Of a DNA stretch of 54,866 bases, positions 20,662-41,714 are shown one piece after another; the stretch's first letter is position 1; each line of letters starts with the position of its first letter. A program made the translations under genes and the position numbers. Under the pieces are notes generated by a model that had not been told where the DNA came from, ran no database searches, and worked only from the letters and a program-made list of their open reading frames with translations. This stretch comes from an uncultured Gammaproteobacteria bacterium (lineage in GTDB: Bacteria; Pseudomonadota; Gammaproteobacteria; CAKMZV01), in NCBI GenBank assembly GCA_929200535.1, contig CAKMZV010000012.1:1-54866 (forward strand), written 5' to 3'.

Positions 20662-20871
20662 ATGCAATTAACAGCAATTTTAACTCCAGCACTTGAGGGT
20701 GGATTTATCGCAACAAATCCTGAAACTGGTACTTGTACCCAAGGTGAATCTGTTGAAGAAGCCATAAGCAATTTGCAAGAAGCGACAGCATTATACTTAG
20801 AAGAATTTCCAATGAAAATTAATCAAAAATCACTTCTAACAACTATAGAAGTTCCTTTGCATGCCTCCTAA
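20662..20871 (+). CDS. hicB: HicB-family antitoxin
   Basis: This 69-residue protein has the HicB partial RNase H-like fold pattern: LTAILTPALEGGFIATNPET, TCTQGESVEEAISNLQEATAL and YLEE. HicB antitoxins bind and neutralise HicA, an mRNA interferase, and often repress the operon. There is no C-terminal DNA-binding domain, as in short HicB proteins. The next frame begins 11 bp before its stop and starts like HicA but breaks off, so this antitoxin appears to have lost its toxin. It may be a relic or an orphan able to neutralise other HicA proteins. Confidence 0.8.
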   Translation: MQLTAILTPALEGGFIATNPETGTCTQGESVEEAISNLQEATALYLEEFPMKINQKSLLTTIEVPLHAS

Positions 20872-21889
20872 ATTACCGACAATTTCAGGAAAAGAAGTTG
20901 TTCGCAGACTTGAAAAATTAGGATTTATAGTGGCTCTTCAAATGTATCTGCGGATATTTAAGCAATTTTTACTAAAATATCGTGTTTCTTGCTTATTGAT
21001 TTCCATCTTCATAAGCATCTTTTTAGTCTTTTTATGTTTTTATCTTACAGAAGACCCGTTCATAAATATAATTTTTTCCAATGAACGAATACGAAGTGGA
21101 ATATTTTTTCTTTTATTGGCATTGTTTCCTTCCTTTTACTTATGGTATTTACGTAATCATGATAAACTAACACAAATTCAATTTACCAATCTTTCAACCG
21201 CTATGCAGCTGTTTGTTTCTAAGAATAAAACAAGCAAGGCGATTGGCTTAAAGCTCCTAATGGAATTAAAACATGAAAAATTGTATGAAAATCAAATTGA
21301 CTTAGCAACTCAAGGTTGTGATTTATCTGGTGTAAATCTCAAGGGCGCGAATTTACAAGGAGCAAATTTGCAAGGAGCACATTTACAAAAAGCAAATTTA
21401 CAAGGAGCGGATTTACAAGGAGCGAAGTTACAAGGAGCGAATTTAGAGGAAGCAAATTTACAAGGAGCGGATTTACAAGGAGCGAAGTTACAAGGAGCGA
21501 ATTTAGAGGAAGCAAATTTACAAGGAGCGGATTTACAAGGAGTGAATTTACAAGGAGTGGATTTACAAGGAGCTAATTTACAAGGAGCTAAGTTACAACG
21601 AGCAAATTTACAGAATGCTTTTTTATATCTGACTAACTTAAATGAGAGTAACCTGGAGCATACCAATATTGAGCAGGCATATATTTTGGTTGAGGAGCAC
21701 TCTCTTTTGCTTGATGATAAAGCACAAACAACTACCCAGCGTTTTAGTCGCGATCAAATTGAACAATTTATTCGGGAAGAATCTGTACCTATTTCTAATA
21801 ATACTATATATGTGAAAATTATAAAAGACCCTCACTCTCCTGAACGCTACACGCTGGAATTGTTACCAGACAATCCAAAAAATATATAG
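20861..21889 (+). CDS. HicA N-terminal fragment fused in frame to a membrane pentapeptide-repeat protein
   Basis: Residues 1-25 (MPPKLPTISGKEVVRRLEKL then GFIVA) are a typical HicA start, but the catalytic GSH-x-x-x segment and the rest of HicA are absent. From residue 28 (an in-frame ATG at 20942) the protein changes to a different one. Two membrane segments (about 42-67 and 82-105) and a short helical region are followed by about 18 pentapeptide repeats of A(N/D/K/H)LQx type (about 149-265). An acidic C-terminal tail of about 75 residues with no recognised domain ends it. Either the fusion is translated from 20861 through HicB coupling, or translation begins at 20942. Pentapeptide repeats form a right-handed quadrilateral beta-helix; the function here is unknown. 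Confidence 0.72.
   Translation: MPPKLPTISGKEVVRRLEKLGFIVALQMYLRIFKQFLLKYRVSCLLISIFISIFLVFLCFYLTEDPFINIIFSNERIRSGIFFLLLALFPSFYLWYLRNHDKLTQIQFTNLSTAMQLFVSKNKTSKAIGLKLLMELKHEKLYENQIDLATQGCDLSGVNLKGANLQGANLQGAHLQKANLQGADLQGAKLQGANLEEANLQGADLQGAKLQGANLEEANLQGADLQGVNLQGVDLQGANLQGAKLQRANLQNAFLYLTNLNESNLEHTNIEQAYILVEEHSLLLDDKAQTTTQRFSRDQIEQFIREESVPISNNTIYVKIIKDPHSPERYTLELLPDNPKNI
21391..21540 (+). repeat. 60-bp perfect tandem repeat within the pentapeptide region, 2.5 copies
   Basis: The 60 bases at 21421-21480 are repeated without change at 21481-21540, and the half-unit before them (21391-21420) is also identical. Each unit encodes 20 residues, which is four pentapeptides. Perfect identity at silent positions indicates recent slippage or unequal recombination, not ancient duplication. 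Confidence 0.9.
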
Positions 21890-23456: not shown

Positions 23457-25184
23457 TTACTTATCGGTTGTAATAATTTTTGCCAATTGAGTTAGCTCAT
23501 CAAGATGTTTATTACCTTCTTTTTTTGCTTGTTCTATATTCTCATCAAAATTCCAACCTACACTACGGACACCGTTATTAATTAATTGTTCTATTTTTAC
23601 TTTATTTTCCGCATAAGTTTCAGGAGAATGTGCTAAGCGATAGAATAATAATTCAAGCTTTAAGTCATCACGAGTGCATATTTTTTCTGCTTTATTTAAA
23701 TAATCAAGTCCTTGTTTTGTGCGTCCTCTTGCAAGTAAAAAACCTGCATAATTTCCATTATTTCCAGCATTCTCAGGCTCAAGCTCTAATGATTTTTTAT
23801 AGTGTATTTCAGCTTGCTCGTAATCCTGACGAATAAAATGGAGAAAAAAAGCATAATTTCCATTGTGGTAAGCATGTTCAGGGGCAAGCTCTAATGCTTT
23901 TTGATAATATATTTCAGCTTGCTCGTAATCCTTACGAATGTTCTTGAGAAAAATTGCATAATTACCATGATAGCCACCGTCTTCAGGCTCAAGCTCTAAT
24001 GCTTTTTGATAATATTTTTCAGCTTGCTTATAATCCTTACGAACCTCATCGAGGAAAATAGCATAATTCCCCATCAATTCATGACTGCTTTTAAACTGTT
24101 CTAATCCTTGTTGATACAGTTCATCTTGTTTGTTTGAGTCACTTTCTTGGTTAATTCTACGTTGGAAATCGACCCAAGTATTGGCTGTAAATAGAGATAA
24201 CCCTTCACTTGAAGGTGTATTTTTGCTAAGCTCATCTACTTTGTTATTGATTTTATGGATTTTCTCTTTTGTCGTTTTCTCAATAGATTCTAATATGGCT
24301 TCAAGTTTTGAAATTTTTCCTTCTGGCATTTTTTGATTTAAATTAAGCATAAAGCTATCAAATCCGCCTTTTTCATCTATTTGGACTAATTTGAATTTTT
24401 TTTCTAAGACTTTCCTTTCTAAGACTTTCTTAGGGATTTTTTGCTCATTTCTAAAACACCAATATAATTTTTCAGGTTCTTGGTAATCTAATAAATGTTG
24501 CATTAAACCTTCACGATCATTACCGCCATAGCCCATAATGATTAAATGATAATTGGTTAATATTTCATCAATTTTTTTCTTCCACGCATCACTCAATTTA
24601 GCGGTATGTTCTTCATTATTTCTGGGCTGAAAGAAAACATCATTATGGATTTTAACAATCGTTGGTTTTTTATTATCTAAAGCCAGTATAGGAAGCATAT
24701 TTTCATGATAAATAACTTTAGAATGTTGGTTAAATACGGTCAACAAGGCTGTTTCAGGCAAACGGTCAAAATTTGTTGTTATAACGATATTATTTTCTGT
24801 TTCTAATAAAAAATTGGCTAGAAGGATATAACCCACGGAAGGCTCAATCGAGTTATGGGTAATGATTTTTTCAATTTCATTGTAGCCATCCCTCGGGTTA
24901 TGTTGAAAACGTTCTTCGAAGATTTTGCTATAATGATGAGCAGGCGAAGGAGTAGAGGAGTCATTAATAAATTCTTGAAGCGTGGAATGTTTTTCAGGAT
25001 TAAATTTCTTCAGTTCTTTTAACCATTTGTTTGCGAGTTCTTCGCCACTTGGTATACCAGAAGAAACCGAAGCCCCAGCACCTAATAAAAAGGCAAATCG
25101 TGTATTGCCATCATCCAAATTATCGGCAATACTTTGGAATAATGCCTGTTGAGGTATTATGTGTGATGTTTCTTGATTGCTCAT
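23457..25184 (-). CDS. SIR2-like domain protein with C-terminal TPR repeats
   Basis: The N-terminal half (about residues 28-270) is a SIR2-like (SIR2_2) fold. It shows the nucleotide loop LLGAGASVSSGIPSG (34-48), the TTNFD motif (136-140) with the catalytic Asn, a KIHND strand whose His180 fits the catalytic His, and IIMGYGGNDREGL (215-227). Residues about 280-330 form a helical linker. About 360-510 hold four TPR-like repeats of about 35 residues, each with NYAxFL and KALELxPE. SIR2-like domains with extra sensor regions act as NAD-depleting effectors in several anti-phage systems, so an abortive-infection role is a fair inference, but no partner gene is adjacent and other roles are possible. 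Confidence 0.8.
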   Translation of the reverse strand: MSNQETSHIIPQQALFQSIADNLDDGNTRFAFLLGAGASVSSGIPSGEELANKWLKELKKFNPEKHSTLQEFINDSSTPSPAHHYSKIFEERFQHNPRDGYNEIEKIITHNSIEPSVGYILLANFLLETENNIVITTNFDRLPETALLTVFNQHSKVIYHENMLPILALDNKKPTIVKIHNDVFFQPRNNEEHTAKLSDAWKKKIDEILTNYHLIIMGYGGNDREGLMQHLLDYQEPEKLYWCFRNEQKIPKKVLERKVLEKKFKLVQIDEKGGFDSFMLNLNQKMPEGKISKLEAILESIEKTTKEKIHKINNKVDELSKNTPSSEGLSLFTANTWVDFQRRINQESDSNKQDELYQQGLEQFKSSHELMGNYAIFLDEVRKDYKQAEKYYQKALELEPEDGGYHGNYAIFLKNIRKDYEQAEIYYQKALELAPEHAYHNGNYAFFLHFIRQDYEQAEIHYKKSLELEPENAGNNGNYAGFLLARGRTKQGLDYLNKAEKICTRDDLKLELLFYRLAHSPETYAENKVKIEQLINNGVRSVGWNFDENIEQAKKEGNKHLDELTQLAKIITTDK

Positions 25185-37675: not shown

Positions 37676-38302
37676 TTGAAAGAAAGTGCCAGTAGCAAAA
37701 ACTGGAAACGTCGTCAAGCCAGAGATCCCTTTGTTAAAAAAGCACAAAAAGAAAATTATCGTGCTCGTTCAGCTTATAAATTAGAGGAACTCGATAAAAA
37801 TTTCAATCTTTTTGCACGCTCTAAGGTAGTTATCGATCTTGGGAGTGCTCCAGGAGCTTGGACACAATATGCCATTAGACGCAGTGAACAACTGAGTAAG
37901 AAGATAAAGCTCATTGCCCTTGATTTATTAGAAATGCCCTATATTCCTGAAATTGATTTTTTTCAAGGCGATTTTACGGATGAAGCAATCAAGCAAAAAC
38001 TTAAACTTTGTTTAGCGGATCAAAAAGCACATTTAATTCTTTCCGATATGGCACCTAATATGAGTGGTGTTCGCTCGGTTGATGATGGACGTGCAATAAA
38101 TCTTTGTGAAGAGGTGGTTGAATTTGCTAACGATTGTCTTTCTGCAGAAGGGAATTTGATTTGTAAGTCTTTCCATGGTGCTTATTTTGAAGATTTTCTA
38201 TCTGTCGTTAAAAAAAATTACCATAAAACTCACTGTTTTAAACCACAATCTTCACGCCCTCAAAGTCGTGAAATCTATGTTGTTGGACTGAGCAAAAAAT
38301 AA
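37676..38302 (+). CDS. rlmE: 23S rRNA (uridine(2552)-2'-O)-methyltransferase RlmE
   Basis: RlmE (RrmJ/FtsJ) methylates U2552 in the ribosomal A-loop. The 208 residues start at TTG 37676 with GAGG about 9 bp upstream. They show WKRRQARDPFVKKAQKENYR, catalytic Lys in RARSAYKLEELD, SAM motif VIDLGSAPGAWTQYA, catalytic Asp in LILSDMAPNMSGV, and catalytic Lys in LICKSFHGAYFEDF. The Glu is in SREIYVVG. In most gammaproteobacteria rlmE is followed directly by ftsH; here two accessory genes lie between. Confidence 0.95.
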   Translation: MKESASSKNWKRRQARDPFVKKAQKENYRARSAYKLEELDKNFNLFARSKVVIDLGSAPGAWTQYAIRRSEQLSKKIKLIALDLLEMPYIPEIDFFQGDFTDEAIKQKLKLCLADQKAHLILSDMAPNMSGVRSVDDGRAINLCEEVVEFANDCLSAEGNLICKSFHGAYFEDFLSVVKKNYHKTHCFKPQSSRPQSREIYVVGLSKK

Positions 38303-38428: not shown

Positions 38429-38998
38429 ATGAACAAATACACGCAGATTCTATCTCAACACTCAGAACTATCAGAAAGAGTTGATAAATCAACAAAAAAA
38501 ATACATGATATTCGTGATGAGTTGAAGAAATATACTGAACAAAATAACTTTAAACCATTGTTTTTATTAAATGACATATTACGGTTTTGGAGAACAATTT
38601 GTCTAAATTATGAGGCTCACCGCGAGGATAAAAAAACGACAAACGAATCAGGAGGTAAAAAAAATTTAAACCTACGATTTAGCCGAAAACTGACTGTTTT
38701 TAGCACAATATTACCGATGATTGCCAAGCCAATCACAAGCATTGAAGAAATGAAGAAACTCATCAAAATGGCACCTCTTAAAAGATTTTCTACTGGATTG
38801 GATTATCTTAGTGATGATCATTTGCAAAAAGATTTTGACAGGTTTTTAAACGATTACGAATACTACCTAAATCATAAAGAGACAGATTCTAAATATAAAG
38901 ATATCAAAGAACGGGCTAAATATTTTTCAAATTTTATTTTTAAAGCACTCTCACATAAGTCTATAGATGAAGATTATAAAAAATATCTAATAATATGA
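38429..38998 (+). CDS. uncharacterised helical protein resembling the C-terminal part of some nucleotidyltransferases
   Basis: This 189-residue, mainly helical, Lys-rich soluble protein carries a distinctive centre: FLLNDILRFWRTICLNYEAH (46-65), then NLNLRFSRKLTVFSTILPMI (79-98). From memory this pattern occurs in the helical region after the catalytic domain of certain bacterial nucleotidyltransferase-like proteins. The catalytic G-S...D-x-D motif is absent and no coding remnant of it precedes the gene. It is AT-rich with an AT-rich 126-bp leader, unlike the conserved flanks. Its stop overlaps the next start (ATGA), so the two proteins are made together. Function unknown. Confidence 0.6.
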   Translation: MNKYTQILSQHSELSERVDKSTKKIHDIRDELKKYTEQNNFKPLFLLNDILRFWRTICLNYEAHREDKKTTNESGGKKNLNLRFSRKLTVFSTILPMIAKPITSIEEMKKLIKMAPLKRFSTGLDYLSDDHLQKDFDRFLNDYEYYLNHKETDSKYKDIKERAKYFSNFIFKALSHKSIDEDYKKYLII

Positions 38999-39561
38999 AG
39001 AATAATGCAAATAACAAAAAAGTTTTGTTGATCGATATATTAGATGAAGAAATTAAAGATATATTAGGCAATCTAAAAAAAATATTTTCAAAGGAAGAAT
39101 CTTCTTCAAATAGCATTCATATTACTGTCCGAGGTCCATACTACGATATTACAAAAAAATTTATTCAGGAGTTTGAAAATAAGTCTGGTTCTCATATTAA
39201 CATTAATGGAGTAGGGTTGTTTGAAAACGATAATCAATACGTAGTTTACTACAAGGTGGAATTTCCCGATGAAATAGATATAAAAAGCATTTGGAAAAAA
39301 CCCGACTACCCAAAAAAAAATGGAGTTCATCCACATATTTCAATATATAAAGGCTCTGATAAAAATTTTGCAGATAAAGTTTACAACTTTCTTAAAATAC
39401 AAGGGAAATCATTCACTGCAAAAGATTATAAGTTATCCATGCGTACTCTCCACCAATCAGATAAACCAGATTCATTTGATAATAATATTAACAATGAAGA
39501 ACTCTCTTATCCTATTCTTAAGGATGCTATTAAGCTCGTGGAGCAATATGAGTATGTATAA
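38995..39561 (+). CDS. 2H-phosphoesterase-like protein
   Basis: This 188-residue protein has two His-x-Thr/Ser motifs spaced as in the 2H phosphoesterase (LigT/2'-5' RNA ligase-like) superfamily: IHITVRGPYYDITKKF (His42, Thr44) and VHPHISIYKG (His114, Ser116). This superfamily opens 2',3'-cyclic phosphates or cleaves 2'-5' and cyclic-nucleotide linkages. Similarity outside the motifs is not recognised, so the substrate is open. It overlaps the preceding gene by 4 bp and is followed by 155 bp to ftsH. The pair is inserted into the usual rlmE-ftsH neighbourhood, which suggests acquisition by transfer. Confidence 0.68.
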   Translation: MKNNANNKKVLLIDILDEEIKDILGNLKKIFSKEESSSNSIHITVRGPYYDITKKFIQEFENKSGSHININGVGLFENDNQYVVYYKVEFPDEIDIKSIWKKPDYPKKNGVHPHISIYKGSDKNFADKVYNFLKIQGKSFTAKDYKLSMRTLHQSDKPDSFDNNINNEELSYPILKDAIKLVEQYEYV

Positions 39562-39716: not shown

Positions 39717-41714
39717 ATGTGGCAAAACATACTTACCTGGATTATCATCACCTTAGTCGTTGTAACACTATTTAGTCATTTCAGAAACAGCGGAGAAGAG
39801 GTTAGACAAGCAATAGAATACAGCACTTTTATAGATCAAGTTAAAAATGATCAAGTATCTTCCGTAACTATTGAAGGGGCTAAAATTAATGGCACTCTCT
39901 CAAGTGGTGCTTCTTTTAAAACCTATAATCCTGGCGACAGCGGCTTGATTGGTGATTTATTAAACCATAAGGTTAGAATTGTTGCACAAGAACCAGAACA
40001 ACCCAATTTCTGGCTTCAGCTTCTTATCTCATGGTTTCCAATGATTTTTTTGGTACTGTTATGGCTATTTGTTATGCGTTCAATGATGGGTGGCGGTGGC
40101 AGTGGCGGACGTGGTAACCCGCTATCATTCGGACGTAGTAAAGCGAAAATGCTGAGTCCAGATCAAGTTAAAACCACTTTTAAAGATGTTGCCGGTGTTG
40201 ATGAGGCAAAAGAAGAAGTTACTGAATTAGTTGATTTTTTAAGAGCTCCAGAAAAATTTCAAAAACTCGGCGGTAAAATTCCTCGTGGCGTATTAATGGT
40301 TGGACAACCTGGAACAGGTAAAACATTACTCGCTAAAGCCATTGCAGGTGAAGCTAAAGTGCCCTTTTTTACAATCTCAGGCTCTGATTTTGTTGAAATG
40401 TTTGTTGGTGTAGGTGCCTCTCGTGTGCGTGATATGTTTACCCAAGCCAAAGCCCATTCGCCTTGTATTATTTTTATTGATGAAATTGATGCAGTCGGCA
40501 GACACCGTGGTGCTGGTATGGGAGGTGGTAATGATGAAAGAGAACAAACGCTTAATCAAATGTTGGTTGAGATGGATGGTTTCGATGGTAATGAAGGAAT
40601 TATTGTGATTGCTGCAACAAACCGCCCTGATGTGCTTGACCCTGCCCTATTACGCCCTGGACGTTTTGATCGCCAAGTGGTTGTACCATTACCCGATATT
40701 AAAGGACGTGAACAAATTCTTAAGGTACATATGAAAAATGTGCCTTTGCATAGTGGTGTTAAAGCCTCTGTTATAGCCCGTGGCACTCCCGGATTCTCTG
40801 GTGCAGACCTTGCCAATATTGTTAATGAGGCTGCCCTTATCTCTGCTCGTAAGAACAAGAAAAAAGTCTCTATGCTGGAATTTGATATGGCAAAGGACAA
40901 AATCATTATGGGCGTTGAACGCAAAAGTATGGTGATGGATGATAAGGAGAAAAAACTTACTGCCTACCACGAAGCTGGACATGCAATTATTGGTTATCTC
41001 GTACCAGAACATGACCCTGTCTATAAAGTGAGTATTATTCCACGTGGCAGAGCACTTGGGGTCACGATGTATTTGCCTGAACAAGATCGTTACAGCCACT
41101 CTAAGCAACGTCTTCTTAGTCAATTATGCTCAATGTACGGCGGACGTATTGCCGAAGAAATGGTATTTGGAGCACAAGGTGTTACAACAGGAGCATCTAA
41201 TGATATTCAAAGAGCAACTCAAATTGCTCGTAATATGGTAATGAAGTGGGGACTTTCAGACAAATTAGGACCGCTACTATACGAAGAAGACGAGGATGAA
41301 GTATTTATTGGAAAAAGTGTTACTCGTAGCAAAAACATTTCAGATGGAACTATGGAAAAAGTAGATGCTGAAATTCATCAAATCATTGAGGAGTGCTATG
41401 CTTCTGCGGAAAAAATTCTTAAGGCTAATGAGAAAAAACTCCATCTAATGGCAGATGCACTTATAAAATATGAAACAATCGAAGCTACCCAAGTTAAACA
41501 AATTATGGAAGACGAAGAAATCACCCCTCCCGATGGCTGGAAAGAGGATGATAGTGCTGATGATAATGATACCTTAAGTTTTGAAGGGCAAACAGAAGAC
41601 GATATAGAAGAAGAAGAAGAAGCAGCAGAAGCACCGGAAGAAAAAACACCAAAAAAGACTAAAGAAAAAACCAAAAAAGCACCCTGGCCTGACCCAAAAG
41701 GTGGATGGCAATAA
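39717..41714 (+). CDS. ftsH: ATP-dependent zinc metalloprotease FtsH
   Basis: FtsH is a membrane-anchored AAA+ protease that degrades misfolded membrane proteins and regulators such as LpxC. The 665-residue protein has membrane segments at about 4-21 and 98-118 around a small periplasmic domain. It has Walker A GQPGTGKT (Gln in place of the more usual Pro), Walker [36 protein letters not shown], the pore FVG loop in [13 protein letters not shown], and the zinc site HEAGH (418-422). The C-terminal tail is long, Glu-rich then Lys/Pro-rich. It precedes folP as in other gammaproteobacteria. Confidence 0.97.

Follow-up and report, generated by a model that had tools for sequence, protein, structure and literature searches.

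Profile comparisons identified the first of two genes lying between rlmE and ftsH in an uncultured gammaproteobacterium as a nucleotidyltransferase of the Polbeta superfamily that has lost its whole palm in frame. The analysis covered a stretch of 54,866 nucleotides of contig CAKMZV010000012.1 (the window). ORF1 (38429..38998, plus strand, 189 aa) is an open frame encoding a palm-less protein of the PDC-M70A type. Its stop codon shares an ATGA overlap with the start codon of ORF2 (38995..39561, plus strand, 188 aa), an open frame for a predicted 2H phosphoesterase. The sequence makes this anatomy close to certain: which family ORF1 belongs to, how the two genes are coupled, and that the palm was lost in frame. 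Three points are new: ORF1 is an internal-deletion nucleotidyltransferase, the pair represents a rare conserved module, and the hydrolase partner in that module is exchangeable.

The pair is flanked on the left by rlmE (37676..38302) and on the right by ftsH (39717..41714), both on the plus strand, and the interval of about 1.4 kb between them contains ORF1 and ORF2 only. Relatives were compared with the host genome at the level of the same class throughout. Among 29 rlmE loci of class relatives, one per family, ftsH adjoined rlmE in 26, with a gap of up to about 430 bp, mostly 50-200 bp; two of the other three loci were cut by contig ends. Each ORF has a GC content of 29%, below that of the window (36%), rlmE (37%) and ftsH (41%), but the GC3 values (25% for ORF1, 26% for ORF2) resemble those of the neighbours and are ordinary for the window. 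No match for ORF1 or ORF2 was found among 369 class genomes besides their own, and a 12-member profile of the ORF2 2H family matched the window alone when run against the class genomes. As the rlmE-ftsH junction is conserved and neither protein was matched in the other class genomes, the pair is evidently an insertion peculiar to the host lineage. The original prediction had placed two AT-rich genes with an ATGA overlap at a junction described as conserved; the coordinates, the overlap, the base composition and the conservation of the junction were all verified, and the search of the 369 class genomes spoke against the pair being fixed at this locus throughout the relatives.

Viral contigs, phages and plasmids gave no match for the 2H protein or for palm-less ORF1, and on this basis a phage or mobile origin of the pair was rejected. 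Two plasmids carry distant nucleotidyltransferases that match ORF1 and are annotated as 'nucleotidyltransferase domain-containing'. Promoter-like sites at the locus showed no excess over shuffled sequences, and a search for a terminator there found none. Two other genes of the window deserve mention. A 575-aa protein encoded at 23457-25184 on the minus strand combines an N-terminal SIR2-like domain with C-terminal TPR repeats; in PADLOC it matched SIR2 proteins associated with short Argonautes (4e-34) and PDC-S65 best, and it is possibly a defence gene. At 20861-21889 on the plus strand a pentapeptide-repeat protein is encoded, the first 25 or so residues of which (PPKLPTISGKEVVRRLEKLGF) look similar to the N-terminus of a HicA toxin, as though the beginning of a HicA gene had been joined to the pentapeptide-repeat gene.

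The assignment of ORF1 rests on several comparisons. The protein has the FLLNDILRFWRT...LRFSRKL core and matched PADLOC PDC-M70A with an E value of 1.5e-12. The conserved helical core, FKPLFLLNDILRFWRTICLNYE...KKNLNLRFSRKL, is encoded at 38558..38698 (plus strand, about residues 42-88), and the LLND..R..RT and LR.SRKL elements typical of the C-terminal helical domain of PDC-M70A-type proteins are present. Against a profile made from eight full-length relatives, with ORF1 itself left out, ORF1 aligned in two blocks, scoring 18.2 and 172.1 bits: model positions 1-37 correspond to residues 1-37, the N-terminal helix of the family, and positions 169-326 to residues 36-189, the C-terminal helical domain that makes up the last 158 positions of the family. 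The N-terminal 36 amino acids alone scored 22.6 bits, a value reached by none of 2000 shuffles (maximum 6.8). Relative to the eight full-length proteins ORF1 lacks an internal stretch of about 131 residues (393 nt), in frame, and the palm with its GSxxR...SDLD active site is gone; the deletion junction is located at 38527..38542 (plus strand), around residues 34-38. The original prediction saw in ORF1 the helical portion of a nucleotidyltransferase-like protein that had no catalytic portion. The PDC-M70A match and the two-block alignment support that view in part, but the protein is not just a helical half, since the N-terminal helix has also been kept and the palm was lost from between the two.

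The GS...DxD motif was found in the main matched frame at 81 of 83 loci, a count that includes the window; the exceptions are L064, where the gene is split by a frameshift, and the window itself, where the motif is absent. All 82 relatives examined encode a palm and the window alone is without one. When the palms of the relatives were compared with the window by tblastn only chance matches were obtained (best E 0.025, far from the locus), and a search of the host genome at E<=0.001 returned just the two segments of ORF1. On the strength of these searches a palm in another frame or elsewhere was rejected.

The part of ORF1 that has been retained is well preserved. It keeps 39 of the 41 helical positions that are invariant in the eight relatives, the two changes being K to R and F to Y, and, measured against how far the coupled 2H protein has diverged, its helical domain is at least as conserved as expected. 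The data speak for constraint on this part until recently, or still: either the palm deletion is recent or the palm-less protein continues to be useful. The predicted structure is all-helical with a mean pLDDT of 81.5, and confidence is lower near the deletion junction and for the loop of residues 61-80. Comparison of the model with the PDB by Foldseek gave no meaningful fold match (best E 0.66); a HEPN fold was rejected, as no HEPN-like match was among the results.

In ORF2 the first 2H motif, H42-I-T44 (inside HITVRGPY), is encoded at 39118..39126 and the second, H114-I-S116 (inside PHISIY), at 39334..39342, both on the plus strand and at exactly the residues named in the original prediction. 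Both His-x-Thr/Ser motifs occur in all 12 members of the family, across which H42, T44, G47, P48, P113 and H114 are invariant, and ORF2 keeps 12 of 14 invariant 2H positions, including both histidines. Searching Pfam, NCBIfam and the PDB with the single ORF2 sequence yielded no useful match, and the protein stays below the gathering threshold of all 2H models in Pfam. An AlphaFold2 model built on 12 homologues had a pLDDT of 81.0 and a pTM of 0.79; its matches of rank 1-14 in a Foldseek search of the PDB were all 2H enzymes (best E 5.1e-4, TM 0.52), as had been anticipated for the fold. They include YjcG, Usb1 (an RNA 3'-end trimming enzyme), the plant Appr>p cyclic phosphodiesterase, a phage phosphodiesterase and LigT. 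By predicted fold and by active site ORF2 is a 2H enzyme and, because both have been kept, the model and the sequence strongly indicate that it should still be an active phosphodiesterase.

A similar domain was seen in a different setting. At L010:1049-3187 (minus strand), adjoining a nucleotidyltransferase/2H-SAK pair, a 712-aa methyltransferase of the Eco57I type is encoded, the N-terminal domain of which resembles the ORF2 2H family, beginning with ...KPHITVRYS and scoring 50 bits against the ORF2-family profile. ORF2 itself gave a weak MTase_II match, probably through the same 2H-like resemblance.

Scanning 84,980 genomes with the ORF1 core located 80 loci. Those closest to ORF1 encode full-length nucleotidyltransferases of about 320-330 aa, with the GSxxR...SDLD palm between the N-terminal helix and the helical domain. 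At 12 loci, from Burkholderiales, Alphaproteobacteria, a Gammaproteobacterium, Spongiihabitans and Nitrospirota, a 2H gene lies 3' of the full nucleotidyltransferase gene, either overlapping it or within 15 bases. Because this arrangement recurs at 12 loci, the nucleotidyltransferase-2H pair is a real, rare and conserved module, the ancestral form of which is a full nucleotidyltransferase with a 2H enzyme; the window carries an in-frame internal-deletion derivative. The expectation of a coupled pair was correct, but where a helical protein had been proposed as the partner of the 2H enzyme, the 12 related loci of other taxa have a full enzyme. Eleven of the downstream 2H proteins are homologues of ORF2, and the one at L010 belongs to the unrelated 2H-SAK family. 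That two different 2H families can occupy the equivalent place argues that 2H activity is what matters at the partner position.

In a tree built on the helical domains, ORF1 of the window falls inside a clade of 15 (13 with 2H partners, two with exonucleases) with support of 100/100. The two exceptions, L017:2914-3588 and L021:192-872, have an upstream overlapping exonuclease gene instead of the 2H gene. The exonuclease of this clade is similar to Rv2179c and RNase T, a 3'-end enzyme, and the L021 protein matched a CBASS-type exonuclease effector of PADLOC (E 3.2e-42). Other branches have other partners: HD proteins upstream of the nucleotidyltransferase at 30 loci, a downstream TIM barrel of the xylose-isomerase type, which is PDC-M70B, at 24, and HIT proteins at two. 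The HD partners resemble SAMHD1/dGTPase-type enzymes; in a sister branch they are about 315-395 aa long and matched generic HD proteins and SAMHD1 best in the PDB. A histidine phosphatase is the third gene at five loci (L035, L038, L046, L050 and L066), downstream of HD-nucleotidyltransferase pairs (E about 1e-29 in L050 and L066), which suggests that the family also has a version with three genes. The distribution of partner types agrees closely with the tree, with 12 changes compared with 43 in shuffles. One nucleotidyltransferase lineage has thus been combined several times with different phosphate-bond-breaking enzymes, the activity of the TIM barrel being presumed. A literature search found no paper on PDC-M70 or on the nucleotidyltransferase-2H operon, and the sources searched gave no substrate or activity for any member of ORF1's nucleotidyltransferase family; the module is thus unstudied in that literature, and the window copy is a catalytically broken or repurposed variant.

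The repeated partnership of a nucleotide-adding enzyme with a bond-breaking one suggests a writer and an eraser. A two-gene module acquired horizontally would have entered the rlmE-ftsH junction; when complete, it would consist of the Polbeta nucleotidyltransferase (the writer) in translational coupling with the 2H phosphoesterase (the eraser or processor). The writer may add nucleotides to an RNA 3' end or make a short oligonucleotide, and the 2H enzyme may open a 2',3'-cyclic phosphate or trim the nucleotide that has been added or linked. In the host genome the writer would be dead and the eraser kept together with a helical fragment, which could bind the 2H enzyme as a non-catalytic partner or be a recent, undecayed relic. 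The arrangement is compatible with three versions: the pair may process RNA 3' ends, it may make a nucleotide messenger and supply the effector or off-switch that goes with it, or it may be a toxin that modifies tRNA and an enzyme that acts as its antidote. The themes of the original prediction (RNA end processing, nucleotide signalling, defence) are all still in play. We favour RNA or oligonucleotide 3'-end chemistry, since the 2H branch exchanges its partner with a 3'-5' exonuclease and since 2H enzymes are specialists for the 3'-end chemistry of RNA and oligonucleotides (PMC5512222; PMC7824862). The presence of Usb1, the Appr>p cyclic phosphodiesterase and LigT among the solved folds nearest to ORF2 was counted in favour of the same reading. 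Some observations speak against it. The partner range, with HD proteins and a CBASS-type exonuclease, fits nucleotide-signal defence equally well, and no RNA ligase or RNA kinase gene adjoins the module in the window; nor did inspection of the sequences, together with clustering, reveal one among the genes directly beside the module in the relatives. From anatomy and neighbours, we put a writer and eraser acting at RNA or nucleotide ends at a little under an even chance.

A messenger made by the full nucleotidyltransferase could instead switch or restrain a hydrolase effector (2H here; HD, exonuclease or TIM barrel elsewhere), as in CloB-CloA, the window carrying a broken copy. The two-gene layout of a nucleotidyltransferase with an interchangeable hydrolase does resemble Clover (PMC12265719), PADLOC lists the nucleotidyltransferase and TIM-barrel pair as the candidate PDC-M70A/B, and both the L021 match to an exonuclease effector and the character of the HD partners point the same way. 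In Clover, however, CloB restrains the HD dGTPase CloA and inactivation of the nucleotidyltransferase makes the effector toxic (PMC12265719), so that the state of the window, with the palm gone and the hydrolase intact, would not be tolerated unless the 2H enzyme were silent. As the writer was lost without loss of the 2H gene, the 2H enzyme is suggested not to be a toxin that needs the writer for restraint. Membership in Clover itself is unsupported: the HD partners are of about 315-395 aa with generic HD/SAMHD1 matches, and no HD gene lies between rlmE and ftsH in the window. We regard signalling of this kind as possible, although rather unlikely. A similar, doubtful standing is given to a pseudoenzyme partnership, in which ORF1, having shed its catalytic domain, would now be only a non-catalytic helical regulator or an RNA- or nucleotide-binding subunit of the 2H phosphoesterase, within a previously undescribed nucleotidyltransferase-2H system whose hydrolase (2H, exonuclease, HD, TIM barrel, HIT) is exchangeable along the tree.

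Plain decay, with the deletion a chance inactivation, palm-less ORF1 doing nothing and both genes on the way out, would agree with a rare, patchy, AT-rich insertion that lacks a catalytic domain and is known from a single genome. It is made improbable, at about one chance in four, by the in-frame junction, by the lack of a stop or frameshift in either gene, and by the preservation of the invariant helical and 2H residues and of the helical domain as a whole described above.

In a toxin-antitoxin system the nucleotidyltransferase would be toxic by extending the 3' ends of tRNA with nucleotides, in the manner of MenT, a Polbeta-type enzyme adding cytidines to tRNA acceptor stems (PMC10435456), and the 2H enzyme, exonuclease or HD protein would be the antidote that removes them. 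The window would then be the expected end state, as the deletion has taken exactly the catalytic part, in frame, leaving the coupling to ORF2 intact; most partners are also enzymes capable of removing terminal nucleotides or phosphates. MenT antitoxins, however, are not 2H enzymes, toxicity of the nucleotidyltransferase family is putative, and the nucleotidyltransferase gene comes first in the 2H branch, an order that is possible for toxin-antitoxin operons but not the commonest; we hold this reading to be improbable. Collapse of about 390 nt of palm during sequencing or assembly is very improbable: the assembly is a draft of 50 contigs and the palm-less form was seen in this one genome only, but the junction is exactly in frame between two complete helical segments and the region holds no repeat able to cause a collapse there.

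For the writer-eraser reading, the natural palm deletion of the window serves as a built-in genetic test: the 2H gene can be carried without the catalysis of its partner, which speaks against the 2H enzyme as an effector restrained by the nucleotidyltransferase and for it as an eraser. The direction of action in the family becomes testable with two purified proteins. More generally, the operons of one nucleotidyltransferase lineage combine it with at least five unrelated hydrolases. Until now, such a writer and eraser layout has been known mostly from recently described defence systems, Clover among them.

Among the closest known systems is the PADLOC candidate PDC-M70. ORF1 and all full-length relatives tested matched PDC-M70A, and in both cases a second enzyme follows close behind the nucleotidyltransferase. 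The differences are that ORF1 is without a palm and that its partner is the 2H protein ORF2 rather than the TIM barrel PDC-M70B, which was matched in the TIM branch only. Clover (the HD dGTPase CloA with the nucleotidyltransferase CloB) shares the two-gene logic of a Polbeta nucleotidyltransferase and a hydrolase, and sister branches of the ORF1 family have HD partners; those of the sister branch compared are shorter than CloA, which extends past residue 450, and the pair in the window differs in its 2H partner and missing palm. Because the palm is absent, ORF1 is not expected to synthesise p3diT, the product of the Clover nucleotidyltransferase. MenAT and HEPN-MNT toxin-antitoxin systems likewise have a Polbeta nucleotidyltransferase in a two-gene operon, but their partner folds are different, ORF1 lacks the palm and it has no HEPN-like match. 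RNA repair modules, in which nucleotide-restoring and cyclic-phosphate-clearing enzymes act on RNA ends (PMC7824862), combine the Polbeta protein RlaP with 2H enzymes and so contain enzymes of similar kinds; an RNA ligase or kinase is their usual companion (PMC7824862), whereas none adjoins the present module, and the relatives of ORF1 do not match RlaP in Pfam. With the 2H superfamily (LigT, Usb1, YjcG, plant CPDase) ORF2 shares the fold, both motifs, their spacing and the size, yet it forms a separate subfamily linked to nucleotidyltransferases and distinguished by an additional invariant Gln154 and a C-terminal helix.
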